IMG/VR virus record: IMGVR_UViG_3300028384_000042
Span: 1 to 20,000 of that record
Source: a virus
Length of the DNA: 20,000 bases
Strand: one strand, 5' to 3'
In this document: one piece after another, positions 1 to 20,000 of the stretch
Layout of the letters: each line of letters opens with the position of its first letter
Position numbering within the stretch: position 1 is the first letter of the stretch
Translations under genes and position numbers: made by a program
The notes under the pieces: model-generated
What the model was told of the DNA's origin: nothing
Databases searched by the model: none
The model's input: the letters and a program-made list of their open reading frames with translations, nothing else

Positions 1-960
1 ATCCGTATAATAAGAACCAGTATCACCACGTGTACCGCTAGCCTTCATACCTGTAAGGGTCAGGTTTTGGAAGTATGAACCGCTGTTTACGCGGAACATA
101 GTCTGCAGTTCTTGGGAGTGCGGAGTATCTACGTCGTAGCCAGACTGATCGGCAGTAGGGATCTTGGGGTGAATGATACACGTACGCAACGACTGACCAA
201 TAATGCCAATGTCATTCTTTTCAATGTCAAGTGGCAGGGTTTCAGCGTAAATACCAGGTGCAACAGAAACGATGCTGCCATCACCTTCAGAATCACCATT
301 GATGTCTGACAATGCAGCAGCGATGGTTTTCTTAGGACGGCTGATACGGTGTCCATCGTTGCTGTCGTCGCCGCTAGAAGCGTCAACGTAAATAACTTTA
401 GGTTGGTTAGTAAAGGTACCGCCAGAAGTGATAGAGGTCCAGCTAGAACCAGTCCAAACAGAAAGAGTCAGGTCGTCGTTAGGGTCAACCCAAACTTGAC
501 CAACGCCAATACCGTCAGTAGTGGTAGGTTCGTCGTTCTGGTAATAGTTATTAAACCTGCGGGTTGCAGCCTGTGCAGTAAAGATCTGATCGTCAGTGCC
601 AACTCGATCGGGGTCTCCCTCTTGCTCGGTAAGAGTAATTTTATCAGTATTCTTAATACGATCAAGATCAACAGAGTTGGCTGCAATGCCTAGGGTCACT
701 TGACCGCCAGTAGCAGACTTACTAAGACCAGAGGCGTCAATTAAAATATCATCCTCAATAGCCGAGTCAATTTTAGAATCAACACGGTTATCAATAGCTG
801 CAGTACTAGCAATCGTAGTGTCGTTGTTAGGCCAAGTTTCGGCAGCTAAAATGGTCTCAGTATCATCATCAAAGTAGTTATCCTCCAGGTACTGCTTGGT
901 AACAGCATCCTGTGCGTCAACAGGATCAGCCAGTTCGGTGATCCGGTTGCTTCGACAGCG
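1..960 (-). CDS. Tail fibre, downstream part (partial, runs off the window start)
   Basis: This is an open frame from about 960 down to base 1 with no stop; its upstream limit is a stop at 979-981, and it has no start codon of its own. It begins with SNRITELADPVDAQDAVTK, the junction typical of phage fibres just after the T7 gp17-like N-terminal domain. A VGQVWVDPNDDLTLSVW segment follows, a motif I associate with cyanophage structural proteins. Next comes a likely beta-helix (pectin-lyase-like) shaft, starting at VIYVDASSGDDSNDG and PKKTIAAAL and continuing with alternating short beta segments and Asn/Gly turns. It is therefore the continuation of the fibre gene that starts at 1286 in another frame. 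Its role would be host recognition at the outer fibre. The C-terminal receptor-binding end lies outside the window. Confidence 0.75.
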
Positions 961-1286
961 AAGTTGTTTTGGTTGAAGTTATCGTTGAGATCTTGCGACC
1001 GGATAGCAGATCCAGCAAAGAACGTAGACTTCAGTTCAGTGATGTCTGTCTCACGGAACACCCGAACGGTGACTCCAGATTTAGGAGCCCCCGTTGTTTC
1101 TTGCAGGGTGGTGGCAACAGAGATAGTATTAAATTGGATTCTCGTATCAGTCGAGAAAAAATATGCAGTTGTAGGCTGGGTGGTGCCATTCAGGCTGACT
1201 TTGACGTCAGACTGTTCCAGGTATTCAAATGTAAAGTCAAAGAAAACTTTAGTGCCGTTTCCTGTGAACGTATCGAATGTCGCCAT
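846..1286 (-). CDS. Tail fibre N-terminal fragment (T7 gp17-like, tail-attachment domain)
   Basis: Starts ATG at 1286 with an AAAGG six bases upstream, 14 bases after the gp16-like gene. Residues 1-110 match the phage T7 tail-fibre N-terminal domain: MATFDTFTGNG, FTFEYLEQSDVKVSLNG, RVFRETDITEL, and FFAGSAIRSQDLNDNFNQ. In T7 this domain docks the fibre on the tail. Homology ends near FAVEA (about 950). The rest of this frame, down to the stop at 846, is out-of-frame translation, and the genuine continuation is in the frame listed for 1-960. The two frames should be one gene. Whether a short segment is missing or a single indel separates them cannot be decided here. T7 gp17 is 553 residues; this fibre is longer than the visible part. 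Confidence 0.8.
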   Translation of the reverse strand: MATFDTFTGNGTKVFFDFTFEYLEQSDVKVSLNGTTQPTTAYFFSTDTRIQFNTISVATTLQETTGAPKSGVTVRVFRETDITELKSTFFAGSAIRSQDLNDNFNQNNFAVEATGSPNWLILLTHRMLLPSSTWRITTLMMILRPF

Positions 1287-1300
1287 TAGGTACCTTTAGG

Positions 1301-4300
1301 TTACTTGTTCTTCAATAAATAATCAGCAGCTTTCAGGGGGTTGCCAGCACGTTGTTGTGCTTTAGCAGCAGCTTTGTTGTCAGCTTGTGTTTGTAGATCA
1401 GGGAATGCATCAGCAAGGCCAGCCAATGCGTCTCGTTTTGCTTGACTAAATATACGTTTGATCTCACGCATAAAGTTTGCGTCATCCAAACTCATGTTTG
1501 TAGGATCATCCTTAGTTTTGCCAGGAAGACCTCCCGGTTGTCGCAGCTTTCTGTATTCTTCAATCTCTTTGCGGATGCCAGGGTCTTTGAACAAATCGTC
1601 TAGCTGTTGCTCAATAGTCCTACCGTTGTAATCTTTATAGCCACCCATCAAGTCAGCGAGGTGTTCCCGCTGCTGTGGTGTCAACCTAGTACCGTTTGCA
1701 TCTGTGCTGAAAGTGGCAACCATATCAAAGCCACTGTCACGCAGTAGCTGTCTGGTTTCGTTATCAGCGTCAGACAGTTGGATCGGAGAGATGCTGTTCC
1801 ACAGACGAGTTGGGAAGTCCCACTCACGTACAACCTCACCACTCAGCGGATCACGTTTACGTGCCAAGAATCCACGCAGAATAGGGTTGCGGTTTGCAAT
1901 CGTGTGAGCAAAGTCATTCTCCAGTTCACGGAGACCTGGGTTCAGAACGTTTGCAATCTCGTTACGAATACCGCTAAAAGGAATAAAATTATTTGTAAGG
2001 TTGGCAGCCCATACCTCAGACCGTGCACCGTCAAATGCAAGAACATCAGTCAAAGGTTGCAGACCAGCCAAGAATGACTTGTTAGTCAGGTTCATGCCAA
2101 TCAGGTAACCGACCTTGCGGAACATGTTTTCAGTGCCAGCCTCGCTGAGGTTGCCTGCAACAAAGTTGTCACCGATGTCAGCAACTAGGGCCAACATGGA
2201 TGCAAACGGCTCCAAGCCATCGTAGTTAATATATTTGTCACCGAGTTTGATAGACCTAGGACGCCAGCCAGTCTGTTCCCATGCTCTCCGTTGCTCACGG
2301 TTAGCTGGACCATTGCCGGTCAGACGGCCTGTGGTGTAGAGACCAGCGGCTGCACCGACAGTCAAGTATCCAGTAGCAACACGACCCCGGACCATGGCTT
2401 TTGCAGCTTCGAGCTGACCTACGTCTGTAATGCCATACTTCAGTACACCGTCAAGGTTGTCAGGTGTTGCACTGAGGATTGCACGAACGTCATCGTTGAA
2501 ACGCGCCAGGATAGGCGTATGCTTACTGACGACAGAGATAGCGTTAGCACCTGTTTTCATGAACAGGAAGAACGGACGGACGATAGGTGTCCGGTTCATC
2601 AGACTTTCCAGCTCACCCAGACGGCCAGTCAAGGGCAGTTGCAGTGCAGCTTCCTTACCAGCATATTCTGCTGAGATGTCAATGACCTCACCAGATTGTC
2701 CGAAGATTTTCTTACGGAACTCTGACTCGTACTTTTCGATCAGTTCCCTAGTCACCTTGCCATCACTGGCATTCCATGCAGCTTCAAAAGCTCTAGCTTT
2801 CATCTCTTGACGTCCGATGATGGTTTTAGTAAACGCATCAATCGTCGTCATAGCGTTAGACGGATACCTAACCCAGCTTTGGTTGTTGAAGTCCTGAATG
2901 GCAGAGGTCATCCGGTACATGGCCTTCTCAGCAGTTGTACCTTGGGATTCGATCACACGTCCCAGATTCTTCCAATGCTTTGCTTCAGAAGGGCTAACCA
3001 GTTGGTTTACATAAGGACCTGCCTGGTTATGGACAAGTGAATGGTGGGTGTTTTTAGCCAATGCCCAGGCTTCACCGATGCCACCCCAGAACCCGTCGAA
3101 GGCCATGTGGTAACCCTTTGCGAAGGATTTAGCATCACCTGGAGTTAGAAGGCCTCCAACCATCATTTGCAACGGTCTCAAGCCTGCTAACAGACCAGTA
3201 CCAGATGCAGCGCGTGACAGAGTTTTAGGTGCTGACAGGATGGAGTTGTAAAGCTGACTAAACAAACCGTCAACAAATTTACTCCGTGCACCGCCAATAC
3301 CCAGCAGTGATTTCCAGTTAAACACTGCATCAGAGGCGTACCGTTTCATTGCTTCCAAAGTGTGCACCTGACCTCCAGATTCAGCAAATGCACGCAAGAA
3401 CGTCTCTGTCATTTCAGGGTCATTCTTGACAATGTTGCGGAGGCTCTTCATAAATGAAGTCAGTTGCTTGTCTTTGTTTGCACGAGTTACAGCATTAGAG
3501 ACCTGACGCACATCGCCACGGCGTGCACGCAACAGTGACCCAGCAAACTCGCTTGCTTCCTGATTAAGTCGGAAAGCAGCTTCTACTTTGTCCAACAGGT
3601 TTGTCAGACCTTTTTCCATAGGCACTTTGTCCACTACAGAGTGCAATGCCATAGCCTTTGTAGACACAGCAGTATTAAGGTCATACATCAACATTTCCAA
3701 CGCGATAGCGTTAGCACTGTTCATGACTGAACGCTCCTTACCAGCGACATTAGTCACAGTGATGCTGTCTTCCATCAACAACTTCTGGATGTCGTCGAAG
3801 TTGCCTTTAGACAAATCAGGGAATGAAGAAAGAATATCAGTGTATTTAGCAACAGCCAGTTGTTTGATACCCATCATGTCTGTGCCAAGACCACCTACGT
3901 TTTGACCTGCAGGGATCTCCAGACCACGCTGTACTTCATCAGCAAAAGCAGCAATCTGTTTGCGGACCTCAGTGTTACTGCGTGCCATCCGTGTCAGTGC
4001 AGCGTCTGTAATCAAACGTGCACGCTGACCAGCCGACAGGTCACCACGATTTGCCATAGCCAGCATGTCTTTCATGTGCTGGTACAGGTTGCCTGGACGT
4101 ACGCCACGCAAGCCCTTGTCAGGCAGGTCGAACATGTCAGGGTGAATGTTCGGTGTTGGCTCTGTCAGATTCTTGTCAAAAAGTTCTAATTGAATGTTTT
4201 CCTTGACAGCACTATCTTGTGCCTCAGCAATCTCAGCAGCAGTACGCGCCTCCACAACCTCAGGATTAGCGTCCTGAGCTTTCTTGAGTTTTTCTTGCAG

Positions 4301-5188
4301 CCTAGAAAGTTTCTTAAGCTGACGTGCCTGCTCTTTACTGCCATCAGGAAGCTCCTTTGCAGCCTTAGTTACAGTATCAATTTCTTGTGTCAGTGCAGTG
4401 AGGTTAGCCCCTGCACCTTCTTTTGTGCCTGCATCGACAGCCTCAGCGGCTGCTTTGCCTGCACGGAAACTAAAGATCTTACCAACAGCCCAGCCCATGC
4501 CAAGATCTTCCAAAACATGCTTGGCTTTCTTTTCAAGGGGTGAAGACTCTTCGTTAGTTGCAGTCAGCGTCCACCAAGGCATCAAAGGTTGCAGCGAGTC
4601 GTTGATGGTTGATTCCATCGAACGCTCACTGACAAATACAGCAGTGGCACTGCGGCCAGCACCTGACACCTTCAGTGCACCTGGTACATATTTAGATCCG
4701 TTGATTACGGTTTTGAGTTTGTTGAGCTTAGAGAGGTGTGCGACACCACCAGTGCCAGCAAAACCAGCACCAAACTCCAAGACGTTGCGAAGGAAGTTAC
4801 CCCACACCGTCTTGTTCATAGGCTCAACTTTATCGTCTACTTGCAGCCAGCTAGGTTCAAACTTAGGGTCTAGCAGCTTGCCAGTGAGGGCACCCTCAAG
4901 GGTACCGCCCACACCTTCAACCAGGTCGATACCTGCACCGACAACTGCGGTGCCCACCTCTTGAAGTGGATTGTTGGTTTCTTCCTTTTTTGGTTCTTCA
5001 GGTTCTGGTGTCGGTTCTGGCTTTGGTTCTTCTTTTCTACGACCAGTTTCAAGACCGTCAAACGATGGCAACCCATCGGGATACATCGCATCCGCTTCGT
5101 CTATAATCTGTTCAAAGATAGAGTCACGATCTGCGTCGTCTTGATACTGTGTTTCGTCATTGACAGGTCCCGTAGGAGTTGTAGTCAT
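1301..5188 (-). CDS. Internal virion protein D, T7 gp16-like (ejectosome / DNA-entry protein)
   Basis: 1295 residues, close to T7 gp16 (1318), and placed between gp15-like and fibre genes as in T7. Members sit in the inner core of the capsid and are ejected to form the channel across the cell envelope that starts genome entry. Start is ATG 5188, five bases after the gp15 stop. Residues 52-70 are a Pro/Glu/Lys-rich linker. Around 74-105 is a Gly-rich hydrophobic stretch (VGTAVVGAGIDLVEGVGGTL), with another near 135-150. A further hydrophobic Gly/Ala segment (TGYLTVGAAAGLYTTGRL) lies in the C-terminal third; all are plausible membrane-contact regions. Most of the rest is predicted helical. I see no SLT transglycosylase motifs at the N-terminus, where T7 gp16 has its lysozyme-like domain. 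The function call rests on synteny and size more than on motif matches. Confidence 0.8.
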   Translation of the reverse strand: MTTTPTGPVNDETQYQDDADRDSIFEQIIDEADAMYPDGLPSFDGLETGRRKEEPKPEPTPEPEEPKKEETNNPLQEVGTAVVGAGIDLVEGVGGTLEGALTGKLLDPKFEPSWLQVDDKVEPMNKTVWGNFLRNVLEFGAGFAGTGGVAHLSKLNKLKTVINGSKYVPGALKVSGAGRSATAVFVSERSMESTINDSLQPLMPWWTLTATNEESSPLEKKAKHVLEDLGMGWAVGKIFSFRAGKAAAEAVDAGTKEGAGANLTALTQEIDTVTKAAKELPDGSKEQARQLKKLSRLQEKLKKAQDANPEVVEARTAAEIAEAQDSAVKENIQLELFDKNLTEPTPNIHPDMFDLPDKGLRGVRPGNLYQHMKDMLAMANRGDLSAGQRARLITDAALTRMARSNTEVRKQIAAFADEVQRGLEIPAGQNVGGLGTDMMGIKQLAVAKYTDILSSFPDLSKGNFDDIQKLLMEDSITVTNVAGKERSVMNSANAIALEMLMYDLNTAVSTKAMALHSVVDKVPMEKGLTNLLDKVEAAFRLNQEASEFAGSLLRARRGDVRQVSNAVTRANKDKQLTSFMKSLRNIVKNDPEMTETFLRAFAESGGQVHTLEAMKRYASDAVFNWKSLLGIGGARSKFVDGLFSQLYNSILSAPKTLSRAASGTGLLAGLRPLQMMVGGLLTPGDAKSFAKGYHMAFDGFWGGIGEAWALAKNTHHSLVHNQAGPYVNQLVSPSEAKHWKNLGRVIESQGTTAEKAMYRMTSAIQDFNNQSWVRYPSNAMTTIDAFTKTIIGRQEMKARAFEAAWNASDGKVTRELIEKYESEFRKKIFGQSGEVIDISAEYAGKEAALQLPLTGRLGELESLMNRTPIVRPFFLFMKTGANAISVVSKHTPILARFNDDVRAILSATPDNLDGVLKYGITDVGQLEAAKAMVRGRVATGYLTVGAAAGLYTTGRLTGNGPANREQRRAWEQTGWRPRSIKLGDKYINYDGLEPFASMLALVADIGDNFVAGNLSEAGTENMFRKVGYLIGMNLTNKSFLAGLQPLTDVLAFDGARSEVWAANLTNNFIPFSGIRNEIANVLNPGLRELENDFAHTIANRNPILRGFLARKRDPLSGEVVREWDFPTRLWNSISPIQLSDADNETRQLLRDSGFDMVATFSTDANGTRLTPQQREHLADLMGGYKDYNGRTIEQQLDDLFKDPGIRKEIEEYRKLRQPGGLPGKTKDDPTNMSLDDANFMREIKRIFSQAKRDALAGLADAFPDLQTQADNKAAAKAQQRAGNPLKAADYLLKNK

Positions 5189-5193
5189 AGCAC

Positions 5194-7347
5194 TTATTGA
5201 AAGTTAGCTCTCGATCCGTGCATCAGAAGTATCTCGCTACCATCAGGCAGAACATAAATAGACATGACTCCGCCACCACCAGGGTCGATTTCAGTTTTGA
5301 GATATTCTGCACCACTTACAGAGATGCGTGTGTTTTTGGGTGTAGCAAAGTCAATCCCATTATGGAACTTAGGCACTCCATAGACAGGATGAATCCGTGG
5401 GCCGTAGCCTGAAGTTTCACGGAAAACTTGATCAATAGGTTTGCCGTCAACCAACAGACGATTCAGTATCGAAGTCGGATCAACGTGTTGACCTTTAGCG
5501 TTATTGTATTTGACGTGGACATGGGGTCCAGTCGATGCACCAGTATTCCCCGTGAAGAACTCCCTGGCAGCAGCGCCCATCACTGCAGGATTAGAGAAGG
5601 GTAGTCCTTCTACAAGTGGGCTGTTAATGTAAGGTACGTCAGGATCAATACCTGCATCTTTAAGGCGTCGATATGCGTCTTCTACAAACATAGTATCAGC
5701 GTCTTCCCTTGCATCAAAATCGCCAACCTGTGCGTAAGCTTGGATAGCTTCTCCAGGTGTCTTGGCATTCTTGACTTCTGGGAATCCATCTAACACATCA
5801 GCCAGAGCCTTGACTCTTGCATGTTCTGTTTCGTACTCCTCAGACATACCGTCTCGCTGGTACAAAATACCAGCCAAAGGTGCGATAGCCTCAGGCATTC
5901 CATACTCCTGTGCAACTCGCGTAGCATCGTGGAACCCTGCAGGTCCTTCACGGATAATGGCAGGAGGGTGGCTACCTGCTACACCAACACGACTAACGCG
6001 GTTGGGAGTTGGACTTGTAAGTAATTCTAGCTGCTTCAATGCTGCAGCAGTACCCTCATATTCGTCTTTGGGAGGAGGATCAACACCAAGCAACAAAGAC
6101 CTAGCCTCATCAAATGTGATTTGGTCATTCGGGTTTTGAATGTTAAAGTGTTCGACGTATCTGCGTAGTTTTAGAGTTCCCGCACCACGCGCTGATGATG
6201 GGTCTCCTAGTTCTGCAAGATCGTTTTCGGTAAACAAACCGCCAACATTGCTGATAAGACCAGCTTTGCCTCGTGCGATAGCAGTGGCTCTGACGTTTTC
6301 GATTTCGCTTTCTCCTCGTTCAGAAGAAAGATTTGGATCTACTTTGAATCGGTCGTGAATAAAACGAGTTTGGCTTCCATAACCATCTCTTGCATAGATA
6401 CCCTTGCCATTCATAATATCGGCTTCAACTTGCAGCACCGCTTGCTCATAGGCTTTGCTCCAGGTCAAACCTTCAGGAGCCTTAGGATCCATCAGAATCT
6501 GACGTGCACGGGTGTGTAAGTCTTCAACTGCTGCTCTAGCAACTGCACCATGCTGGCCTGCTAGTTGCTTGACATTTCCACCAGTCAAACCGACAGCGTT
6601 TACAACTGCCTGTTCAATGTTATCTTCGTAGCCGTCTGTCGGAAGCTGTGATCTACCATTAACACCGTAGCGTTCATCGATAAGTTCTGCAGCATCAGCA
6701 TACTCTTTAATACTTTGCAGTCTTGAAAACCTCGGGCTGTTGAGAACGTTTGAAGTGAACTCACCCTCACGGATCATGATGTCAGCAGCTTGCTGTTGAT
6801 CTCTCAGCTCGCCAGCTTCCTGTGTACCTTCGTCTCTAAGATTAGTAAGAAGTGGATCAACCCTTCCATACCTATCATAACTAGCTTTAATAGCTTTGTT
6901 AATAAGATCTTCTGGTGGTGCTCCGTTTTCTTTGATGTTTAGACTTGCAACATAATCTCTTGCAAAGTTTTCTACCTCTTGATCTTCTACTGCATCTTCG
7001 TGCTGGTCACGTGCCAAACGTTGTTTGGACATGTCGTAACGTGCAGTTGCCAGCTCAGAAGCGAAAGCCGAACGCCAAGACTTACCCATGTAGTTATTGG
7101 TACTGTCAAGAATTAAATTGACTTGATCTTCACTAATACCTCCCATCTTCGGACCCACGGACTGTAGTTCCAGAAGATGCTTGAAGATGACTTCCCTGGC
7201 TTCAGGTGCAGTCACACCAGTGCGCCGGAGCTTATCCATCGCATCCTGGAATAGTCTGTTGTTAGGGTCAGCCGACACAAGTGCCGCAACACCTAATTCA
7301 GTCAGGGCTTGAGACCCTGATGCGGCGATACTGAGATTGAATGACAC
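5194..7347 (-). CDS. Internal virion protein C, T7 gp15-like, main part with C-terminal M23-type peptidase
   Basis: A 717-residue frame, mostly helical and charged, placed between gp14-like and gp16-like genes. T7 gp15 (747 residues) is an inner-core protein ejected to build the periplasmic tube. The first annotated Met (7347) is probably not the real start. The N-terminal 220 residues are in another frame (7298-7978), and homology-like sequence here begins near SGSQALTELGVAALVSADP. Together the two frames give roughly 930 residues. The last about 120 residues hold M23 (LytM-type) metallopeptidase motifs in permuted order: STGPHVHV (His609, His611), VDP, then GPRIHPVYG, HNGID (His662, Asp666), and MHGS (His710). 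All expected zinc and catalytic residues are present, so it is likely an active peptidoglycan endopeptidase. It ends five bases before gp16. Confidence 0.8.
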   Translation of the reverse strand: MSFNLSIAASGSQALTELGVAALVSADPNNRLFQDAMDKLRRTGVTAPEAREVIFKHLLELQSVGPKMGGISEDQVNLILDSTNNYMGKSWRSAFASELATARYDMSKQRLARDQHEDAVEDQEVENFARDYVASLNIKENGAPPEDLINKAIKASYDRYGRVDPLLTNLRDEGTQEAGELRDQQQAADIMIREGEFTSNVLNSPRFSRLQSIKEYADAAELIDERYGVNGRSQLPTDGYEDNIEQAVVNAVGLTGGNVKQLAGQHGAVARAAVEDLHTRARQILMDPKAPEGLTWSKAYEQAVLQVEADIMNGKGIYARDGYGSQTRFIHDRFKVDPNLSSERGESEIENVRATAIARGKAGLISNVGGLFTENDLAELGDPSSARGAGTLKLRRYVEHFNIQNPNDQITFDEARSLLLGVDPPPKDEYEGTAAALKQLELLTSPTPNRVSRVGVAGSHPPAIIREGPAGFHDATRVAQEYGMPEAIAPLAGILYQRDGMSEEYETEHARVKALADVLDGFPEVKNAKTPGEAIQAYAQVGDFDAREDADTMFVEDAYRRLKDAGIDPDVPYINSPLVEGLPFSNPAVMGAAAREFFTGNTGASTGPHVHVKYNNAKGQHVDPTSILNRLLVDGKPIDQVFRETSGYGPRIHPVYGVPKFHNGIDFATPKNTRISVSGAEYLKTEIDPGGGGVMSIYVLPDGSEILLMHGSRANFQ
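5197..5562 (-). other. Circularly permuted M23 (LytM-type) peptidase domain within the gp15-like protein
   Basis: A normal M23 domain reads GxRxHP..G, HxxxD, then DGxxxxYxH, then GxTGxSTGPHxHFE and VDP. Here the last block comes first: FFTGNTGASTGPHVHVKYN and HVDPTSIL, then YGPRIHPVYG, FHNGIDFATP and, at the very C-terminus, LPDGSEILLMHGS. The cut lies in the loop after the catalytic-His strand, which would keep the fold closed. Motif order is seen directly; the fold and activity are inferred. Confidence 0.7.
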
Positions 7348-7978
7348 TGAGTGCTAAACGTTTTTGGTCAGCTCCCTGTGCTGTAGCTGGAGTAAATTCA
7401 ACACCATCGAGTGTAAGCTTTGTAGTGTTGTCTTCAGCAAAAGCTGTATCAACAAAGACGCTATAGCCATCACCATACGAAGTAGCAACACCACGTTTAT
7501 AGCCATAAGCAGCCCAGCCCGACAAACCGCGCATACGTGCAACGACGTCAGGAGGAGCACCATTTGCTTCCAGTTGATCAACTCCTGCCTGGTATTCTCT
7601 ATCATCTTGCTCTAACGCTGCTTCCTGCAAATCGTAGTCAGGTTGCATAGCTTGCATTTTGGTGGCATCTTCCATGCCCTCAGCAAAATACTTATCAGCC
7701 TGATTCTGTGCGTAACCTTCTGCAGCGGTTGTGAGGGTCTCCATGAGTTTGGAAGAGAAGCCCTGTAGCTGCTCTAGCTCCATGCTCTTAGCGAGACGCA
7801 TAGAGTCTTCCTGCTGTTGCATATCGCGCAGGGTTGCATCTAGCGTACGCTGCATATTCTGTTGTTCTGTTCGTTGATTCTCACGCATCTGTGGCGTAGG
7901 ATCAACTGCCTGGATAGGTGCAAAACGATCTGTCTGAGCTGCACCTTGGAATTGTTGCCTTAGTTCAAACTCTTTCAT
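7298..7978 (-). CDS. Internal virion protein C, T7 gp15-like, N-terminal fragment
   Basis: Starts ATG 7978, two bases after the gp14-like stop. The 226-residue frame is Gln/Glu-rich and helical in its first 120 residues (MQRTLDATLRDMQQQEDSM, MELEQLQGFSSKLMETLTTA). It then has a conserved-looking core, PPDVVARMRGLSGWAAYGYKRG and FVDTAFAEDNTTKLTLDGVEFTPA. It runs to GADQKRLALSVIQSQYRR and then into an out-of-frame tail. The 717-residue frame at 5194-7347 picks up at SGSQALTELGVAAL, and the two ORFs overlap by 50 bases. In this phage group gp15-like proteins are larger than either piece alone, so this is best read as the first quarter of one gene with a frame break near 7330. Nothing at the overlap looks like a slippery heptamer. 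Confidence 0.7.
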   Translation of the reverse strand: MKEFELRQQFQGAAQTDRFAPIQAVDPTPQMRENQRTEQQNMQRTLDATLRDMQQQEDSMRLAKSMELEQLQGFSSKLMETLTTAAEGYAQNQADKYFAEGMEDATKMQAMQPDYDLQEAALEQDDREYQAGVDQLEANGAPPDVVARMRGLSGWAAYGYKRGVATSYGDGYSVFVDTAFAEDNTTKLTLDGVEFTPATAQGADQKRLALSVIQSQYRRIRVSSPD

Positions 7979-7980
7979 AA

Positions 7981-8676
7981 TTAGCCGGGTTTCTCAAATC
8001 CAAAGAACTTCTCGCCAGGTGCAGTGAATTGGTAACCAGTCTGAAGACCAGACATGGCAGCTTGACCGATCATCAATCCCATGTTCATCCTGGGTGCAGC
8101 CGGTGGTGTAGGTGCAGCGACACCAGTCTGTAGCTGCGGTGGAATTGCAATACCAGAGAATGTCTGATTATTTGCAGATCTCAACTGACGGTCGATGTTC
8201 TGCAAGTTACGTTCAGATTGAGCACGTGCACTAGACAGGCTTTCTGCCTGAATAGCTTGCTGTCGTCCAAACTCACCTAGTGTAGATACAAGAGATGCAC
8301 GCTCAAAGCTGCGACCTCTGTTACCACCTGCAGCGACGTTAGCGCCCATGGCACGCATCAGTTGTGTACGGGCTGCTGAGTTTTGGAATGCAGCACCACG
8401 GAACACTTCGTTCAGTCGGACTTGTTCAGACTCCATAGAACGACGTGCAGCCTCAGCATTGAAGCTGAACTGACGATCTGCAATCTCTAGTTGTTTGTCA
8501 AAACGCTGTTCAGTCAGTTCGTTCTGACGTTTAATCATCAAGTTTTGAAACGTATTCTGATATACGTTTGCTTTGTGCTGTTGTTCAGCTTGGCGAACGG
8601 CTTCGTTATGTTTGGAAAAGCCGCCTAGGATGCCCATGCCAAACTGCAGGCCACCCATTACTGCTGCTATTGCCAT
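7981..8676 (-). CDS. Internal virion protein B, T7 gp14-like
   Basis: 231 residues (T7 gp14 is 196), between gp13-like and gp15-like genes. In T7, gp14 is an inner-core protein that is ejected and forms the outer-membrane pore of the entry channel. The N-terminus (AIAAVMGGLQFGMGILGGF) is a Gly-rich hydrophobic segment that could enter a membrane. It is followed by a long charged, helical, coiled-coil-prone region to about residue 150 (EQQHKANVYQNTF, IKRQNELTEQRFDKQLEIAD). Then comes a Pro/Ala-rich linker (PPQLQTGVAAPTPPAAPR) and a second short hydrophobic stretch near the C-terminus (NMGLMIGQAAMSGLQTGYQF). Start ATG 8676 overlaps the gp13-like stop by 10 bases, suggesting translational coupling. 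Confidence 0.85.
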   Translation of the reverse strand: MAIAAVMGGLQFGMGILGGFSKHNEAVRQAEQQHKANVYQNTFQNLMIKRQNELTEQRFDKQLEIADRQFSFNAEAARRSMESEQVRLNEVFRGAAFQNSAARTQLMRAMGANVAAGGNRGRSFERASLVSTLGEFGRQQAIQAESLSSARAQSERNLQNIDRQLRSANNQTFSGIAIPPQLQTGVAAPTPPAAPRMNMGLMIGQAAMSGLQTGYQFTAPGEKFFGFEKPG

Positions 8677-9104
8677 AATCTAATAAAGTCTACAAAGTAC
8701 AGGTTTTTAGGTCCTTGTATTTTTACATCTAAAAACTTGAACCCTAAGTGTTTTAGAAGTTTGAGGTGCGTTGTATTCCTAACATCTGCACAGTTGTAAA
8801 GAACTTTGTGTGGTAAAGATTCTAACCAACGTTTTGCTTCTCTAATAAATGTAATAGGATAATCTTCTATGGCAGGTGTGCATAACATCCATACACAGCC
8901 GTCATCAGACACGCCAGCAATTCCGGCAGTCTTACCGTTTGGAACGTGAAACACGACGGTATGGCCCTGTAAGGTATCTAAAAAAAGAGCGAGAGCTGGG
9001 TTGATACCCCAGCCCTCTTGTAGCTCACGCCAGTCGTCCTGGCGTAGATTCTCAGCAATGTAGGCAACTTCTTTGTACGTGGGCGGATGGATGTACTTAG
9101 ACAC
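8667..9104 (-). CDS. Internal virion protein gp13-like (GNAT-like fold candidate)
   Basis: About 145 residues from a GTG start at 9104, overlapping the end of gp12 by eight bases; T7 gp13 is 138 residues and lies in the same place. The frame can be extended to a TTG at 9149, but those extra residues lie over the conserved end of gp12, so the GTG is preferred; there is no clear ribosome binding site for either. The sequence YIHPPTYKEVAYIAENLRQDDW, GHTVVFHVPNGKTAGIAGV and LLKHLGFKFLD has the layout of GNAT-like acetyltransferase folds that many phages encode at this position. The typical acetyl-CoA loop (Q/RxxGxG/A) is not evident, so enzymatic activity is doubtful. It is likely a virion assembly factor or minor internal protein. 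Confidence 0.65.
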   Translation of the reverse strand: MSKYIHPPTYKEVAYIAENLRQDDWRELQEGWGINPALALFLDTLQGHTVVFHVPNGKTAGIAGVSDDGCVWMLCTPAIEDYPITFIREAKRWLESLPHKVLYNCADVRNTTHLKLLKHLGFKFLDVKIQGPKNLYFVDFIRLWQ

Positions 9105-12003
9105 GTTTGTAGAATTTGGTGGTGTATCTACCCTCCCAACTGAAGCCAAGCAAAGACACAGGGTACGGTGTTGTACCTTCGATCAGTATGCCTAGGTTTT
9201 CGTTGCGTTGGAAGATAGGAACGTTGTGTGTGGCAGATGCCAACATGTTTACTTTGTTGAGATTATAAAGATATGGAAGCGTGACGCTAACAACATTCTC
9301 CCAATCAGATAAACCAGTAATATCGATCTTGTAATCAACGGGGCCACTAAGTCCGGTGGAAACCTTAATGCGATGAATGATAAGGTTTGATACATCATCA
9401 TTACTGACATTATCACCAGATTGACTAAACACATAAAGCTTCGGTAGCTCCAATTTCATGTCATAGTTCAATCCCACAACAACATCCTGGCCTCTGAAGT
9501 CACCGTCTACGTCGAAGGTGTTACCGCTAAAGGTTGGTTCCAACAAGCTACCGTCAGTCGTATTAATAAGAGATAGCTTCTTACCTGTAATGGCGTTAAA
9601 CGGCAGAGTATACGTAGACTTCTCAGTCGAGCTGTCATAGGCTACAGGTGGATTGGTTGTCCATAGGTCAAGGCATACGTCCGTCTTCTCACCCGTAGGC
9701 AGAGTCAGGAAGCCTTGCTCACTAGACTGGTTCATGTCAAACGACAGTGCATACACACGTGTGTCGTCATGAACGACTGCGTAATATGTGCTGTTGTCGA
9801 AGAACTGATCCAGAACTTTGCCAGTCATCTCCCACTTGTACCATGTTTCTACAACACGGTTGTCGCCGGAGTTGAAGAACCTGTATTGATAGATAGTTTC
9901 TTTATTTTTAGTTGCCATGGAGACCATAGATAGCCCTGGCGAACAAATAAGATTATCAATAGAATCAGGAATTAGTTCTGGTACGTTTTGAGTCGTATCC
10001 CTAGACGTAGGTGGCTGGTCTGTGCTGATATTCATCAGCTCATACATGTGGGTGTACAGCGGTGTCTTAGCGATAAACACCATCGATGTGCCAAGAGACA
10101 CAGCCTCAACATCAGGATCAGCCTCAAAGCTGCTGAGCTTGTTAATCTTCGCTGTCAGCGGGCTAAGGGTGTCAGAGTCAGTGGTCAGGTAGAACTGGTC
10201 ATTCTCTCCAAACAAGACCAGACCGACGGCAGTTGGCTGCACGTAGTTCAGAAACACAGGTCTTGTGCTGGATGCAGAGATGTCAATAGGATCATCGTCT
10301 GTAGCAGTCTTAGCTGAGGTGACAAAGAAGTTAAAGAAGTCACCTGCTTTGCTTAAGATCACAGCATCGTTAGCCAACACACCGAACCTGTTGCGGAAAA
10401 AGAACATTGATTTGATCTTCTCACCAACGAAGCTAGGCAGTGGGTTGGTGTTGTTATCACCCACTTCCCTATCAGCCCAGTCAACTGGTTCGTATTTGAA
10501 CGACCCATCAGCCTGTCTGACAAGCTGGTGTGGCAGCGTAAGTTCATCCAGTTCGTACTTAATACCAGGTCCGTTAGTTTCTACCCAAGATCCAGCACCG
10601 TAGGTCTGACCATTAGAGGTCTCGAACTTGACCCACATGTCATCAATGTCGATGTCAGTGGTGTTGATGATCTTAAGTTTGTAGTCATTCTTAGCCTGAA
10701 TAGGCAGGCGTGACACGTTAGGCACACTGTCTTGGAAAGCGTAGATGCCGTCCTGTTGTGAACCACCACGCACCTCAATCTTGAATGAACTGCTACTGGT
10801 GATCGAGATGCCAGGTCCAACCTGTACAGCCGTGTAATTAGAGTCACCGTCGATTGCTGTGGCAAGCGCACTCGCAATGCTATTAGCGTCAGTCTTTGCC
10901 TGTGCATTGTTGTTGATCACTGCAGCCGCAGGCGTGCTGTGGGTGAATGTTGTGGTTGTGTTGCCGATCGTCAGCAGAACTTTGTAGTCAACGTTATAGG
11001 CAACAACATTAATGACAACAAATGCCTGGTTTGGAAGTGCATCAGTCGTCGTTGACTTCATCGCCACTTCCTTATTCTTGTTCAACACGAACGTATAATC
11101 GTTCAGTGTCAAGAACTCAATGTCGTCTTCAGTAGCGTCTTTAAGGTATGCGTCAGATGGTACCTGTGTATCTGTGATAGCACAGCTTGTTACCTCACTG
11201 TTATAGTCTGTGAGGGCTGTGGCTTCTGCAGAAACAGCGTCGTCGTAGTTATCTTTTGCTGTCTCTAGTGCAGTCGTTTTAGTTGTAAGGTCACTGGAGG
11301 AGTGTGTAGCTGCTGTCGTGAGGATAGCCTCGTACACACGGAAACCTTGACTAGCAAGATTAGGATGCTCGTCAGTAACCTCTGTACCTAGTGCGTAGTT
11401 TGTAGGAAGTGTAGAAGATCCTTGACTAATAATCGTATCGTCATTCTTAACAACATAGTTACCTGAACTGTCTTCAAGGATGCCAGATGTCAGGTATTCG
11501 TTAAGATCTCCGACAGGGTATTTGTAGTTGACCTTGAACAGACGTGAGGTCGTAGCCTTCTGACCAGCATTGACGACAGCGAACTCATCCTCTGCAGTTT
11601 TGAGAAGCTTTAGTTTTGCAGCGGTGTCAGCCACAGCAGTGTTGTATTCCAGCAACTCTGTCTGCAGGTCTGTGTAGTTACATCCAGACTGGACACCTGT
11701 GTTTGTACCCATGTCAACTTTACGTGGGCTGCCATCTAGCAGGCTCCAGACACGGAACACGTTGTCGTCATACTGTGCGACATACTTTTCCTGTGCGTCA
11801 CGTAGGATAGAGAACCACCTACCACCAGTAGATGCACCCTGCAGCTTGGCTTCATATTTACCGCCTGGACGTTTCAGCATACCCAAAGCGTAGTCCGGGA
11901 AGGTATTCACCGCGTCTTTGACTTGACCTGGAAACTTCCGATTGTCAGGTTGTTGTGATATACCTCGCAGGAGGTTAGGGATTCTTTGGGTTACAGAACT
12001 CAT
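9097..12003 (-). CDS. Tail tubular protein B, T7 gp12-like (nozzle)
   Basis: 968 residues; T7 gp12 is 794. It forms the tail nozzle below the gp11 adaptor ring, to which fibres also bind. Family features include the opening SVTQRIPNLLRGISQQPDNRK with GMLKRPGGKYEAKL, the segment FLTLNDYTFVLNKNKEVAM (about 297-315), and later IKSMFFFRNRFGVLANDAVILS and NYVQPTAVGLVLFGENDQFYL. Extra length relative to T7 includes two helical, coiled-coil-prone insertions at about 111-144 (TDLQTELLEYNTAVADTAAK and on) and 234-272 (SSDLTTKTTALETAKDNYDD and on). Start ATG 12003 overlaps the gp11 stop in an ATGA, and the end overlaps gp13, so gp11-gp12-gp13 look translationally coupled. Confidence 0.93.
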   Translation of the reverse strand: MSSVTQRIPNLLRGISQQPDNRKFPGQVKDAVNTFPDYALGMLKRPGGKYEAKLQGASTGGRWFSILRDAQEKYVAQYDDNVFRVWSLLDGSPRKVDMGTNTGVQSGCNYTDLQTELLEYNTAVADTAAKLKLLKTAEDEFAVVNAGQKATTSRLFKVNYKYPVGDLNEYLTSGILEDSSGNYVVKNDDTIISQGSSTLPTNYALGTEVTDEHPNLASQGFRVYEAILTTAATHSSSDLTTKTTALETAKDNYDDAVSAEATALTDYNSEVTSCAITDTQVPSDAYLKDATEDDIEFLTLNDYTFVLNKNKEVAMKSTTTDALPNQAFVVINVVAYNVDYKVLLTIGNTTTTFTHSTPAAAVINNNAQAKTDANSIASALATAIDGDSNYTAVQVGPGISITSSSSFKIEVRGGSQQDGIYAFQDSVPNVSRLPIQAKNDYKLKIINTTDIDIDDMWVKFETSNGQTYGAGSWVETNGPGIKYELDELTLPHQLVRQADGSFKYEPVDWADREVGDNNTNPLPSFVGEKIKSMFFFRNRFGVLANDAVILSKAGDFFNFFVTSAKTATDDDPIDISASSTRPVFLNYVQPTAVGLVLFGENDQFYLTTDSDTLSPLTAKINKLSSFEADPDVEAVSLGTSMVFIAKTPLYTHMYELMNISTDQPPTSRDTTQNVPELIPDSIDNLICSPGLSMVSMATKNKETIYQYRFFNSGDNRVVETWYKWEMTGKVLDQFFDNSTYYAVVHDDTRVYALSFDMNQSSEQGFLTLPTGEKTDVCLDLWTTNPPVAYDSSTEKSTYTLPFNAITGKKLSLINTTDGSLLEPTFSGNTFDVDGDFRGQDVVVGLNYDMKLELPKLYVFSQSGDNVSNDDVSNLIIHRIKVSTGLSGPVDYKIDITGLSDWENVVSVTLPYLYNLNKVNMLASATHNVPIFQRNENLGILIEGTTPYPVSLLGFSWEGRYTTKFYKRV

Positions 12004-12617
12004 CGTTTCAGTGCGTTAAAAGGCTGATAGCTTTGATAGAAACTATCCCCATCTCTGAAACCAAAGAAGGAGATGTCACCTTGATTGAGGTCATACTCCA
12101 GTGCAGCAGCACGGGTCATGACTTCCTGCTCTTGCAAAAGGGTGTTGATCTCCTGGTCACCAACCATCTTCACAGCACACATACGTGCAGCACGTGCGGT
12201 GATGTAGTTCTGGATAGCAGCAGGGACGTCAGGGAAGTCAAAGAAGTATGTGATGTCTACGTGGATATTTTTGTCGAACGTGTATTTGTGATGTAGTCGG
12301 TCATACAGTTTTACACCACGCTTGACGACATCAAACTCCCCATGGTGGTGGTGTTGGTTGATGTCGATCTGCAGTGCATTCTGCGGGTACTTGATTTCTT
12401 TGGTGATGCTGTCAGGAGTCAGTTCAATGTTGCGTTCGACGTTGAACATCCAACCTTCTGACTGACATTGCTTGCTGACCTCGCGGAGGGTGTTGACCAC
12501 GATAGCAACTTCGGGGTTCTGGAGATCCAGAGTGGTGACAGGAGCCTGTCCCACCGAGCTAAGTATTTGATTTACAGCATCCAGTTCGGTGGACACAGCA
12601 TAAGTAGGAAAGGCCAT
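12000..12617 (-). CDS. Tail tubular protein A, T7 gp11-like (portal-nozzle adaptor)
   Basis: 205 residues; T7 gp11 is 196. It forms the ring between portal and nozzle. The opening STELDAVNQILSSVGQAPVTTLDLQNPEV and CQSEGWMFNVERNIELTPD are typical of the family, as is the C-terminal YITARAARMCAVKMVGD. A natural run of four histidines lies at residues 89-92 (NQHHHHGEF). The start codon ATG 12617 lies only about ten bases after the U-run of the capsid terminator, and no Shine-Dalgarno sequence is seen in front of it. Expression therefore depends on terminator read-through or on an unrecognised promoter. Coupled to gp12 by an ATGA overlap. Confidence 0.93.
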   Translation of the reverse strand: MAFPTYAVSTELDAVNQILSSVGQAPVTTLDLQNPEVAIVVNTLREVSKQCQSEGWMFNVERNIELTPDSITKEIKYPQNALQIDINQHHHHGEFDVVKRGVKLYDRLHHKYTFDKNIHVDITYFFDFPDVPAAIQNYITARAARMCAVKMVGDQEINTLLQEQEVMTRAAALEYDLNQGDISFFGFRDGDSFYQSYQPFNALKR

Positions 12618-12623
12618 ATCGTA

Positions 12624-12654
12624 AATAAAAAAAAGGGACCCCGAAGGATCCCTT
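12624..12654 (-). terminator. Intrinsic terminator after the major capsid gene
   Basis: In the minus-strand RNA, nine bases 12654-12646 pair with 12641-12633 around the loop UUCG. A G-U wobble occurs at pair 48/39; on the plus strand the same pair is a C-A mismatch, so the signal is directional. An eight-base U-run follows (12634-12627). It sits directly after the capsid stop (12668), the position of the T7 main late terminator T-phi. Confidence 0.88.
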
Positions 12655-12667
12655 GGTAAACAAATGA

Positions 12668-13624
12668 TCAGAATGCGGCAGGCTTGGTAGCGGTACCAGC
12701 AAACAGTTCCACGCAGGCAGCGGGGTTCAGGTAGTCTGCGCCCATGGCGAGACGGCCCAGAATCACATCACCTTGGTAGATCACGGAGACGTCACCGCTG
12801 GTGACTTGGACCTGAGGTCCGATAGCTTCCACGCAGCCAGCACCTTCACGCTGGAAGATGATGCCGCAGGAGTTAGCGAACTCAGTTTCTTCACCGTACT
12901 CGTTGTTGATGCCGGTAACATCGGCAGCAGCATCTTCAATGGCAGGAGACACGAACGAACCGGTGTTACCAGGATCGGTAACGCCAGGGTTAGTGGCAGA
13001 GCCAGTACCGAACTTGGTACCGTACTGAGAGAAGAACGGAATGTTCATGGACTTGAAGATCTTGATGCCAGCGATCTCGACGACACCTTGACCACGCTGA
13101 CGTGCAGTACCCTGCTCGTCGCGGTTGATCAGACCAGAGTCACCAACCTTTTGGATCAGTTCATAGTACTGACGGGGGTTGAGGACACCGACGCGACCTT
13201 CAGTGCTAACACCCTTTTCATCGAGTGCAGCCGCGGCGTCATAGAATGCTGACACGAGATTGTCAGAGTCGTAAGCGTCAGAGGCGTTAGTGGTAGAACC
13301 CACACGCACCTGAGTACCACCGGGCTCAACGAAGTTGGACTTGGTGATAGGAGATGCAGCACGTGCACCACGAGTGATAGCACGGAAGATCAGACGGTCA
13401 TATTTTTCTGCGAGTGCATATCCGATCTTCTTAGAGATTTCGGAACGCAGATCGTAGTGAGCAAGAGTCTCATCCAGGTCATAGACGAAGGCGCTGGAAA
13501 TCAGCAGGTCGTCAACGGTGATGGTCTTCTCAGCCACCGGCGGCGCACCGTCGGAGTTACCGAGGATTGCGTTGCCAGGGGTATGGTACTCAGCCGTGGT
13601 ACGACCGGTGTAGATGAACTGCAT
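12668..13624 (-). CDS. Major capsid protein, T7 gp10-like (main part; N-terminal block missing)
   Basis: 318 residues from an internal Met. In-frame family similarity extends upstream to about 13655 (TKRTLTNGKSMQF), which matches the T7 gp10 segment MVRSISSGKSAQF. Further family blocks are GRTTAEYHTPG, KTITVDDLLISSAFVYDLDE, HYDLRSEISKKIGYALAEKYD and the C-terminal GRLAMGADYLNPAA. T7 gp10A is 345 residues. It forms the icosahedral shell (HK97 fold). The expected upstream stretch, which in T7 reads LALFLKVFGGEVLTAF, is absent from the DNA between here and the start codon at 13707, which is in another frame. An intact capsid gene is essential, so the break probably does not reflect a working virus. 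A strong terminator follows the stop. Confidence 0.9.
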   Translation of the reverse strand: MQFIYTGRTTAEYHTPGNAILGNSDGAPPVAEKTITVDDLLISSAFVYDLDETLAHYDLRSEISKKIGYALAEKYDRLIFRAITRGARAASPITKSNFVEPGGTQVRVGSTTNASDAYDSDNLVSAFYDAAAALDEKGVSTEGRVGVLNPRQYYELIQKVGDSGLINRDEQGTARQRGQGVVEIAGIKIFKSMNIPFFSQYGTKFGTGSATNPGVTDPGNTGSFVSPAIEDAAADVTGINNEYGEETEFANSCGIIFQREGAGCVEAIGPQVQVTSGDVSVIYQGDVILGRLAMGADYLNPAACVELFAGTATKPAAF

Positions 13625-13654
13625 AGACTTACCGTTGGTAAGCGTACGCTTGGT

Positions 13655-13707
13655 TCTGCACCAGGCCGTGTAAGGCTCGTGGTCAGATCAGTTGATTGAT
13701 GTGCCAT
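13655..13707 (-). pseudogene. Major capsid protein, N-terminal fragment (frame-disrupted from the main part)
   Basis: ATG 13707 opens MAHQSTDLTTSLTRPGA, which looks like a capsid N-terminus of the cyanophage type and lies in the right place. The frame then leaves the capsid sequence near 13655 and continues as an unrelated 68-residue ORF to 13501. The main capsid frame is blocked upstream by a TGA within 20 bases of this ATG, so no simple alternative start restores it. Around 30-40 residues appear to be lost between the two parts. No Shine-Dalgarno sequence is visible before the ATG. Confidence 0.6.
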
Positions 13708-13867
13708 TTTTAAGGAGTAAAGTTAATAAAGACTTCTCCCAAACGTTTGGAAATTTTTGTTGCAAATTTTTGTGGTCTATCCCACCGTCCAGACGGCTAA
13801 TGGGTATCCGCGTACGGGCCAGAAGCCAATGCAAGGGAGGTCCGACTCTGAGGTGCCTCCCAAGCTA
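13708..13867 (-). promoter_or_regulatory. Non-coding leader of the capsid gene with repeats and inverted repeats
   Basis: About 160 bases without a convincing gene. In minus-strand order there is an inverted repeat GGGAGG/CCTCCC (13861-13856 with 13840-13835), a second one CCGTC/GACGG (13796-13785), two direct copies of ACAAAAATTT (13773-13764 and 13760-13751), and a perfect 12-base palindrome CCAAACGTTTGG (13750-13739). A late phage promoter would be expected here, as T7 has one before gene 10. I cannot match a known promoter: the segment ATTGGCTTCTGGCCCGTA (about 13831-13814) shares only its two ends with the Syn5 promoter ATTGGGCACCCGTAA. Structure and promoter role are inferred. Confidence 0.4.
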
Positions 13868-14017
13868 TTACAGAAGACCTTTAAGGCACTTCTTTTGTTT
13901 ACGACACTGCGCCTTTTTTGTACCGCACTTGCCGCACCTTTTGAATACCCCTTGTTTGCCTGATTGAGGGCTATAAGGTACAGGTGTAGCCTTTGCTAAA
14001 GAAGACTGGTGACTCAT
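13868..14017 (-). CDS. Small basic Cys-rich protein (49 aa), hypothetical
   Basis: Unrecognised. From ATG 14017 the product is 49 residues, with an N-terminal Ser/Pro/Ala part and a C-terminal half rich in Lys. Four cysteines are spaced CGKC, six residues, C, five residues, C, a possible zinc-binding knuckle. An upstream GTG (14059) in the same frame gives 63 residues, but the AGGAG before it is only three bases away and overlaps a hairpin, so the ATG is preferred although it has no ribosome binding site. It lies between the DUF4278-like ORF and the capsid leader. Coding status is uncertain. Confidence 0.45.
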   Translation of the reverse strand: MSHQSSLAKATPVPYSPQSGKQGVFKRCGKCGTKKAQCRKQKKCLKGLL

Positions 14018-14040
14018 AATGTATTTGATAATTTGTAGGC

Positions 14041-14063
14041 GTGGGCGCTTTCCGAACACCCAC
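14041..14063 (-). other. Hairpin between the DUF4278-like ORF and the Cys-rich ORF
   Basis: In minus-strand RNA GUGGGUG (14063-14057) pairs with CGCCCAC (14047-14041) around a nine-base loop UUCGGAAAG, with one G-U pair. No U-run follows, so it is not a standard terminator. It might be an RNA-processing site or control translation of the next ORF. The adjacent AGGAG (14068-14064) lies just before the stem. Confidence 0.4.
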
Positions 14064-14112
14064 TCCTTAAACCGTTCCTTAGGGCTTTACAATTTTGGAA
14101 AGCTCTGTTTAT

Positions 14113-14226
14113 TTAATTTTTAATTGTGCGCTTGACAATGTAGGCAACGCCGCGATACTTCAAGACAATTTCTTTTTGCTTGGCTTGCTGTTCGCGGACA
14201 CGTTGGCGCACTTCGATTTGAGACAT
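14113..14226 (-). CDS. Tiny DUF4278-like protein (37 aa)
   Basis: ATG 14226 is preceded by GGAG six bases upstream, a good ribosome binding site. The product is MSQIEVRQRVREQQAKQKE followed by IVLKYRGVAYIVKRTIKN and a stop. The KYRGVAY core is characteristic of DUF4278, a short family seen in cyanobacteria and their phages; its function is unknown. The N-terminal half is a charged helix. About 77 bases upstream (14227-14303) hold no gene, only a G-rich leader with GGGGGG. It supports a cyanobacterial host. Its proximity to the capsid gene suggests late expression. Confidence 0.7.
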   Translation of the reverse strand: MSQIEVRQRVREQQAKQKEIVLKYRGVAYIVKRTIKN

Positions 14227-14303
14227 GAGAAACTCCAAAAACCTTACCCCCCGTTCCATGAGTAAGATGCCTGCGTCCCGAAGGATGAACGTACGGCTGG
14301 AGT

Positions 14304-14381
14304 CTATTTCTTTTTTGCAGTCTTGGCAGAACGTCGGAAGTTAGCGGCAGTGGGCGCACCCTTGCTGCCAGGCTTCCTCAT
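14304..14381 (-). CDS. Tiny basic peptide (25 aa), hypothetical
   Basis: ATG 14381 has a GGAG six bases upstream (GTGGAGAAAAAATG), and the product is MRKPGSKGAPTAANFRRSAK with a TAKKK tail. It is strongly basic with no acidic residue. An alternative 24-residue ORF starts at ATG 14415, two bases after the DUF6321-like stop, and ends at 14341 in another frame. Both have possible ribosome binding sites, but only this one shares the basic composition of its neighbours. Unrecognised function; coding status moderate to low. Confidence 0.45.
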   Translation of the reverse strand: MRKPGSKGAPTAANFRRSAKTAKKK

Positions 14382-14417
14382 TTTTTCTCCACTGCCAGCG
14401 GCATTTTGCAGGCATGA

Positions 14418-14678
14418 TTAACACTTCCATTTGCGTAGTGCAAGAGCCTTCCGTGTAGGACGACCCTTGCTGTCTTTCATTGGTCCTTTCACACCAGACA
14501 TACGGGCACAGAAAGAACGCTTGCGTGGTCCGCCTTCAGGCTGTGGTGCCTTCAGGTTAGACCCTGTAGCTCTGTTGTATTTACGACGACCGGCAGCAGT
14601 CAAGCCACCGGACCGTGATTTGTGTGTACCGATCTTTAGACTGACAGAACGGGTACTACTTTTTGTAGCCTTTGCCAC
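14418..14678 (-). CDS. DUF6321-like basic protein (86 aa)
   Basis: Starts GTG 14678 with GGAGG eight bases upstream, so the non-ATG start is well supported. The product has the layout SGGLTAAGRRKYNRATGSNL, PRKRSFCARMSGVKGPMKD and GRPTRKALALRKWKC, which I recognise as the DUF6321 family found widely in phages. The pattern ends in a conserved Trp-Lys-Cys. It is very basic and probably binds nucleic acid or a virion surface; no function is established to my knowledge. The start lies inside the preceding 20-residue ORF (23-base overlap). The gene lies between scaffold and capsid, where late structural genes are expected. Confidence 0.8.
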   Translation of the reverse strand: MAKATKSSTRSVSLKIGTHKSRSGGLTAAGRRKYNRATGSNLKAPQPEGGPRKRSFCARMSGVKGPMKDSKGRPTRKALALRKWKC

Positions 14679-14718
14679 CTTTCTTGCCTCCGCAAGAGCC
14701 TTTACCTTTGTGTGCCAT
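14656..14718 (-). CDS. Tiny Gly/Lys-rich peptide (20 aa), hypothetical
   Basis: ATG 14718 overlaps the stop of the preceding ORF in TGATG, so termination-reinitiation is likely. The product is MAHKGKGSCGGKKGGKGYKK: seven Gly, eight Lys/His, one Cys. It resembles the short Gly-Lys peptides that appear beside DUF6321-like genes in phage late regions, but I cannot name a family. The real DUF6321-like start lies 23 bases inside it. Size makes the coding call tentative, although the overlap and composition favour it. Confidence 0.5.
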   Translation of the reverse strand: MAHKGKGSCGGKKGGKGYKK

Positions 14719-14897
14719 CACTTCATCCTGCGGCTACGCAGCCGTTTGAAGTCAGCAGCATCAATCTTATTTGGATTGCCAGCTTGACGTGCAATCTTTT
14801 TTTGTCCGGCGGTCAGCCGCTTAGCAGGTTTTGCAGTGGTGGTCTTCTTTTTTGGACGGCCAACTTGTTTGCCGTATGTTCCAGGTCCGTAAGGCAT
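14718..14897 (-). CDS. Small basic protein with AT-hook-like motif (59 aa)
   Basis: ATG 14897 follows the scaffold stop (14899-14901) after one base, so it is coupled to scaffold translation. The product starts MPYGPGTYGKQVGRPKKKTT and continues with AKPAKRLTAGQKKIARQAG and a DFKRLRSRRMK end. About a third of residues are Lys or Arg. VGRPKKK has the G-R-P core with flanking basics typical of AT-hooks, which contact the minor groove of A/T-rich DNA. The opening MPYG..YG is one I associate with small phage proteins of unknown role. It may help DNA packing or bind the capsid interior, but this is inference. Confidence 0.65.
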   Translation of the reverse strand: MPYGPGTYGKQVGRPKKKTTTAKPAKRLTAGQKKIARQAGNPNKIDAADFKRLRSRRMK

Positions 14898-14898
14898 G

Positions 14899-17255: not shown

Positions 17256-17259
17256 TTAT

Positions 17260-17586: not shown

Positions 17587-17588
17587 AG

Positions 17589-19999: not shown

Positions 20000-20000
20000 C

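Follow-up and report, generated by a model that had tools for sequence, protein, structure and literature searches.

In this study we found that a gp15-like ejection protein of a marine phage carries, at its C-terminus, an M23 peptidase domain in which the two halves of the fold have changed places. That this domain is circularly permuted we regard as practically certain, and the whole reading, of a permuted M23 metallopeptidase carried on a gp15-like ejection protein and cutting the cell wall during genome ejection, is a probable one. The gene was found in a stretch of 20,000 nucleotides (positions 1 to 20,000 of the IMG/VR record IMGVR_UViG_3300028384_000042), which is here called the window. 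Its features are collected in Table 1, and residues are numbered in the 717-aa open frame.

Table 1. Location of the permuted domain, its parts and the surrounding structural genes in the window, with the evidence for each.
Feature	Position	Strand	Evidence
Circularly permuted M23-like domain, whole (residues 595-717)	5197-5565	minus	phmmer, profiles, alignments, AlphaFold2, Foldseek
First half: GNTG loop, HxH strand (H609, H611), HVDP; residues 599-630 = canonical M23 profile 94-124	5458-5553	minus	23.3 bits; Pfam PF01551 72-96
Linker NRLLVDGKPID (residues 631-641), specific to the permuted arrangement	5425-5457	minus	Alignments
Second half: TSGYGPRIHP, HxxxD (H662, D666), LMH (H710); residues 642-712 = canonical M23 profile 5-75	5212-5424	minus	45.1 bits; Foldseek to lysostaphin
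Degenerate glucosaminidase-like segment (~residues 470-580)	5608-5940	minus	Homology to the S-SRP01/S-CBP1 glucosaminidase
gp15-like ejection protein, C-terminal 717-aa open frame	5194-7347	minus	ORF; full-length relatives L008 (972 aa), L009
226-aa N-terminal piece of this gp15-like gene, separated by deletion/frameshift	7298-7978	minus	Alignment to L008
gp16-like internal virion protein	1301-5188	minus	phrog_6651 E=5.8e-217; homologues in P-SSP7, S-SRP01 and others
gp14-like internal virion protein	7981-8676	minus	Pfam T7_gp14 E=2.4e-7
Nozzle protein (gp12-like)	9097-12003	minus	Pfam Phage_nozzle E=4.3e-177
Tail fibre	846-1286		
Tail tube	12000-12617		
Capsid	12668-13624		
Scaffold	14899-15675		
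Portal	15675-17255		

The initial annotation had read the M23 motifs in swapped order, and they were all located where it had placed them in the minus-strand ORF: STGPHVH from S605 to H611, HVDPT from 621, GYGPRIHP from 647, KFHNGID at 660-666 and LLMHGS from 707. The HxH motif was ahead of HxxxD and LMH, and the linear order of M23 (HxxxD, YxH, HxH) was not found. The Pfam M23 family (PF01551) matched with profile positions 72-96 only, at residues 599-624, and its 25.4 bits were below the gathering score of 28.7. Because the domain fails native-order M23 in motif order and in the Pfam cut-off, it was classified as a circularly permuted M23-like domain. Among PDB sequences searched with phmmer, 5j1l, 6muk and 3slu were each matched in two pieces, in reversed order. 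An HMM made from 30 canonical M23 loci likewise recognised the two halves as separate matches to one profile, in reversed order (23.3 and 45.1 bits). When the domain was doubled, one continuous match to profile positions 5-124 was obtained (66.7 bits), i.e. the homology to M23 extends over the fold once the order is ignored. A chance match of the motifs was ruled out by shuffling, as the best total among 2000 shuffled doubled domains was 12.4 bits in comparison to 131.1 bits for the real one. With the same HMM all 30 canonical controls gave one match in normal order, and the swap was found in every permuted member with two listed matches.

The window domain has nothing that corresponds to profile positions 76-93, which form the hairpin linking the YxH strand to the glycine loop ahead of HxH. 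This absence marks the site of the new termini and agrees with the break after the third-His strand that had been proposed earlier. In the permuted domains from Acinetobacter (see below) the missing part was limited to profile positions ~83-88. Both halves, HxH, HxxxD, the third His and the predicted fold of the larger half are thus shared with M23 enzymes (PF01551; LytM, lysostaphin, ShyA, TagE, NMB0315), whereas the swapped halves, the new linker between the old termini, the missing hairpin and the low native-order Pfam score set the window domain apart. Profiles, the doubled query, the comparison of relatives and the predicted structure all support a circular permutation, as does a syntenic protein of phage S-SRP01 with the canonical order in the corresponding place.

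An AlphaFold2 model of residues 595-717, made from 20 rows including the S-CBP1 type, showed one compact domain with a pLDDT of 91.3 and a pTM of 0.86; in this model a single chain is predicted to close, as the initial annotation had supposed. An earlier AlphaFold2 model from 28 relatives had a pLDDT of 74 and gave only a weak M23 match in the PDB by Foldseek. For the later model the top PDB folds were M23, namely the lysostaphin catalytic domain 4qpb and the Vibrio cholerae M23 protein 2gu1. The superposition on 4qpb was 2.6 Å over 65 columns of the 123-residue model and covered the larger half (probability 0.84), with an E-value of 0.5 that is not significant, as a search that follows the sequence order is able to align one half only. 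In BFVD the earlier model was co-linear, along most of its length, with A0A510E7V3 (TMq 0.62, 3.1 Å over 122 columns) and with the S-TIM5 protein H6WFX6 (TMq 0.57), the sequence of which was read as permuted. H6WFX6 was taken to be AEZ65701, since both have 997 residues.

The 717-aa ORF lies in a T7-like structural module with the order nozzle, gp14-like, gp15-like, gp16-like and tail fibre, and has the T7-like place between gp14 and gp16. Its assignment as gp15-like is supported by this position and gene order together with the gp16-like neighbour; for the gp15 family itself no Pfam or PHROG match to the ORF was found, and the ORF is homologous to the syntenic S-SRP01 protein. Synteny suggests that the gp15-like protein is packaged in the virion and ejected from it. 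The gp16-like protein had its relatives among the internal virion proteins of cyanopodoviruses and of phages from Pelagibacter and Roseobacter, with S-SRP01 giving the widest match, and Pfam detected no peptidoglycan hydrolase domain in the gp16-like protein of the window. The 717-residue frame used earlier gave correct motif positions but not the native length, as the frame is a gene fragment and the native protein is longer. In the relative L008 the gene is a single frame of 972 aa, in which residues 4-224 correspond to the 226-aa ORF and residues 267-972 to the 717-aa ORF. Compared to L008, about 125 nt are missing from the window and the frame changes near 7300-7350; the gene was unbroken in both L008 and L009. 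The permuted domain is located far downstream of the break and is intact. The ORF at 8667-9149 (160 aa), flanked by the nozzle and gp14-like genes, was without a Pfam match. The ribonucleotide reductase (RNR) gene at 18432-19694 was also split over overlapping frames, and the RNR barrel domain was matched by both ORF 19212-19694 and ORF 18622-19305; this points to indel errors in the contig or to a broken gene.

Besides the window, the same order of the halves was found in independent contigs of one clade, with L008 being 98% and L009 and L010 75% identical in the domain. A scan for further gp15s of this clade yielded only the three contigs already known. Outside the clade, the permuted domain was found at the extreme C-terminus of the gp15-like proteins of the cyanopodoviruses S-CBP1, DSL-LC07 and P60, which end after LHG or VHG as in the window; they differ from the window in having HLD for HxH and no regular HxxxD, and the glucosaminidase is intact in S-CBP1 and DSL-LC07. 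A further 70 IMG/VR loci (L289-L358) related to S-CBP1 carry the domain, so that this type is common in IMG/VR. In tape-measure proteins of Acinetobacter phages (Vieuvirus) and prophages and of Moraxella Mcat phages (phrog_3519, phrog_1506) a permuted domain of 30-40% identity was co-linear with that of the window over its whole length, but it was internal in the protein and had HLD. The S-EIV1 protein AHV82231, annotated as peptidase M23 family, was permuted like the window domain, with HxxxD and LLH kept, as were its IMG/VR relatives; these proteins differ from that of the window in being small (~200-270 aa), with the domain N-terminal, and in having HLD. Of the 29 IMG/VR loci akin to AHV82231, 28 were permuted (L241-L268) and one, L269, was canonical. 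A permuted M23-like domain (GAHLH, HTGVD, LAHL) was also identified by fold search and reading in the S-TIM5 virion protein AEZ65701 (L287, 129-3122). A search of the whole S-TIM5 record (L281, 172 kb) with a profile of the permuted domains (A4) missed it, which indicates that sequence profiles miss distant permuted members and that the family is probably larger. When the permuted form was sought in cellular genomes besides prophages, it was seen, among the loci read of 67, in Acinetobacter only, the others being canonical. Neither this recurrence as a family nor the HLD in most relatives had been foreseen in the initial annotation.

In the Moraxella phages Mcat18, Mcat21 and Mcat22 (also L015) the domain match was divided into two pieces that lie in two annotated tail proteins, and this points to frameshifts in the tape-measure genes.

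One origin of the permuted M23 domains is likely. A DGKPL-like linker and a C-terminal LPDG...LHG end are common to the permuted members, and linkers similar to that of the window ('GKPL') were seen in Acinetobacter, Moraxella and other permuted members. The tree, with 104 columns and long branches, is too short to settle one versus several origins; in it a single clade of the permuted rows was not rejected (AU p=0.45), and the unconstrained tree requires three changes of order. The window clade was placed with S-CBP1/DSL-LC07 (support 82/89) and with the Acinetobacter and Moraxella members (95/89). The three order changes, and a window sequence close to canonical M23 (GPRIHP, HVH), would fit a permutation that arose independently in the window gp15, where a canonical C-terminal M23 like that of S-SRP01 would have been duplicated locally and trimmed. 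Given the AU result, the grouping with the other permuted members and the common linker and C-terminal end, we consider such a separate origin unlikely, although it deserves some weight. On the side of a single origin, we tentatively propose, as a reading that is quite possible, one old phage-specific lineage of permuted M23, mostly with HLD, used as a genome-entry cassette in differing virion proteins (podovirus gp15, siphovirus tape measure, a myovirus virion protein and small S-EIV1-type proteins) and forming an enzyme class distinct from M23 proper. As the canonical domain of S-SRP01 and the permuted ones of S-CBP1 and the window occupy the corresponding place in homologous proteins, the origin and the cost of a circular permutation can be tested here.

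For each zinc or catalytic residue of M23 a counterpart had been claimed, and the candidate active-site set of the window was indeed complete (H609, H611, H662, D666 and H710). In the alignment A4 of 28 permuted domains from three groups (window clade, Acinetobacter/Moraxella tape-measure proteins and S-EIV1 type), eleven columns were invariant in 28/28: T32, H35, S72, G75, R77, P80, H88, D92, G117, G119 and H136. H35, H88, D92 and H136 are M23 active-site positions, and the second His of HxH was not among the invariants. At this position the window clade and S-TIM5 have His and the other permuted members Asp (HLD), so that most permuted relatives have Asp as one of the expected zinc ligands. 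HVH, HNGID and LMH are retained in the window, L008 and L009 (the window clade), and S-TIM5 has HLH, HTGVD and LAHL. The S-CBP1 branch with RGSHGID and P60 with RGSFGVD are without the usual His of HxxxD. In L289-L358 an H(x5)RGSHGIDY-like sequence with PHLD and FLHG was seen, which is a different candidate metal site.

The related gp15s also differ in their other wall hydrolases. The gp15-like protein of S-SRP01 (MW015080) has a C-terminal wall hydrolase and the same order before a gp16-like gene as in the window, and its homology to the window-clade gp15 covers the N-terminal half and resumes ahead of the last domain (GIDPDVPYIN / GINPDVPYTN). It differs from the window protein in its intact glucosaminidase (774-874) and in its M23 in canonical order (928-1027). 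S-CBP1 and DSL-LC07 combine an intact glucosaminidase with the permuted M23, and the S-CBP3 gp15 has an SLT domain at the corresponding place. In the window, L008 and L009 no Pfam match to glucosaminidase (PF01832) and no catalytic Glu motif were found, the WALE[TS]GxG motif and the NNxF region being absent from the glucosaminidase-like segment of this clade. The permuted domain was the best conserved part of the protein, with a pN against L009 of 0.163 in comparison to 0.255 and 0.367 for the rest, and its dN/dS of ~0.2 indicates purifying selection. Opposite patterns were thus observed among L282, L283, L270, L008 and L009: clades with an intact gp15 glucosaminidase have an altered permuted M23 site, and the window clade has a lost glucosaminidase motif with an intact M23 site. 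The active sites seem to have decayed oppositely, with the window clade keeping M23 and the S-CBP1 clade keeping the glucosaminidase, and this hints at the enzyme responsible for opening the wall in either clade.

A role of the permuted domain in genome entry is highly probable, and catalysis by the window type is, in our judgement, nearly as probable. Most likely the window domain is a virion-borne endopeptidase that opens the peptidoglycan locally during genome ejection. The old termini of the M23 fold would be joined by the short linker LLVDGKPID, and the new ones would have opened in the hairpin between the third-His strand and the glycine loop preceding HxH. In the compact fold H609/H611, H662/D666 and H710 would meet as they do in M23 enzymes, presumably around a zinc ion. 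The domain would travel in the virion, reach the periplasm as part of the gp14/gp15/gp16 set and cut peptidoglycan cross-links, so that the DNA conduit could pass the wall. In S-SRP01 the same task would presumably be carried out by the gp15 glucosaminidase and the canonical M23. T7 opens the wall with the transglycosylase of gp16, while K1E and K1-5 have lysozyme activity in gp15-like proteins instead (PMC8954989), a precedent for the movement of hydrolases between ejection proteins. The N-terminal lytic transglycosylase of T7 gp16, too, is a wall hydrolase that is carried in the virion and belongs to the ejection machinery (PMC8954989), but it differs from the window domain in fold, in the bond cut and in the carrier protein.

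The main rival to catalysis is a permuted M23 fold that serves as a wall-binding or structural module, a pseudo-enzyme like the degenerate LytM factors. Such a role would account for the replacement of HxH by HLD in the members of the S-EIV1 and S-CBP1 types and in those from Acinetobacter and Moraxella, for the further loss of the HxxxD His in the S-CBP1/P60 branch and for the separate glycosidase of the S-CBP1 and DSL-LC07 proteins. For the window it is rather improbable, as this clade has kept all three motifs and has lost the catalytic motif of its glucosaminidase, and S-TIM5 has a full set as well. It is also conceivable that the permutation is right but the domain is completed by another chain, with a neighbouring gp15 subunit or gp16 filling the hairpin 76-93 that the window domain lacks; T7 gp15 is hexameric (PMC8954989). 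We find this very improbable, since the single chain is predicted to fold with a pLDDT of 91 and the Acinetobacter members miss only a few of these positions. An artefact, either misassembly, to which the broken gp15 frame upstream and the split RNR gene might point, or two unrelated fragments resembling M23, is refuted by the same order in independent contigs, in the cultured phages S-CBP1, DSL-LC07, P60 and S-EIV1, in 70 IMG/VR loci and in Acinetobacter genomes, and by shuffled sequences that stayed below the real score.

Few wall hydrolases and antibacterial lysins are as well known as the M23 enzymes. Native-order profiles see at best half of a permuted domain, so wall hydrolases are missed in many phage entry proteins. 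In the open-access journal literature we found no description of a permuted M23 or LytM; the permuted domain in PMC6403190 is NlpC/P60, not M23. In the databases the members are labelled as hypothetical proteins, 'peptidase M23 family' or 'tape measure protein', and the domain is contained in tape-measure families of PHROG. The sequences themselves are thus known, and it is the arrangement that appears undescribed.

Two PDB chains, 9m7n_A ('Gp16', 915 aa) and, weakly, 9k2v_E ('Internal protein', 1058 aa), matched the profile A5 and may carry M23-like domains. In the S-TIM5 protein AEZ65701 a lysozyme-like C-terminal segment was present besides the permuted domain. Upstream in the same protein we observed a stretch that resembles the missing M23 hairpin (VKEGDKVEIGQIIG) and that is perhaps a relic of a tandem duplication.
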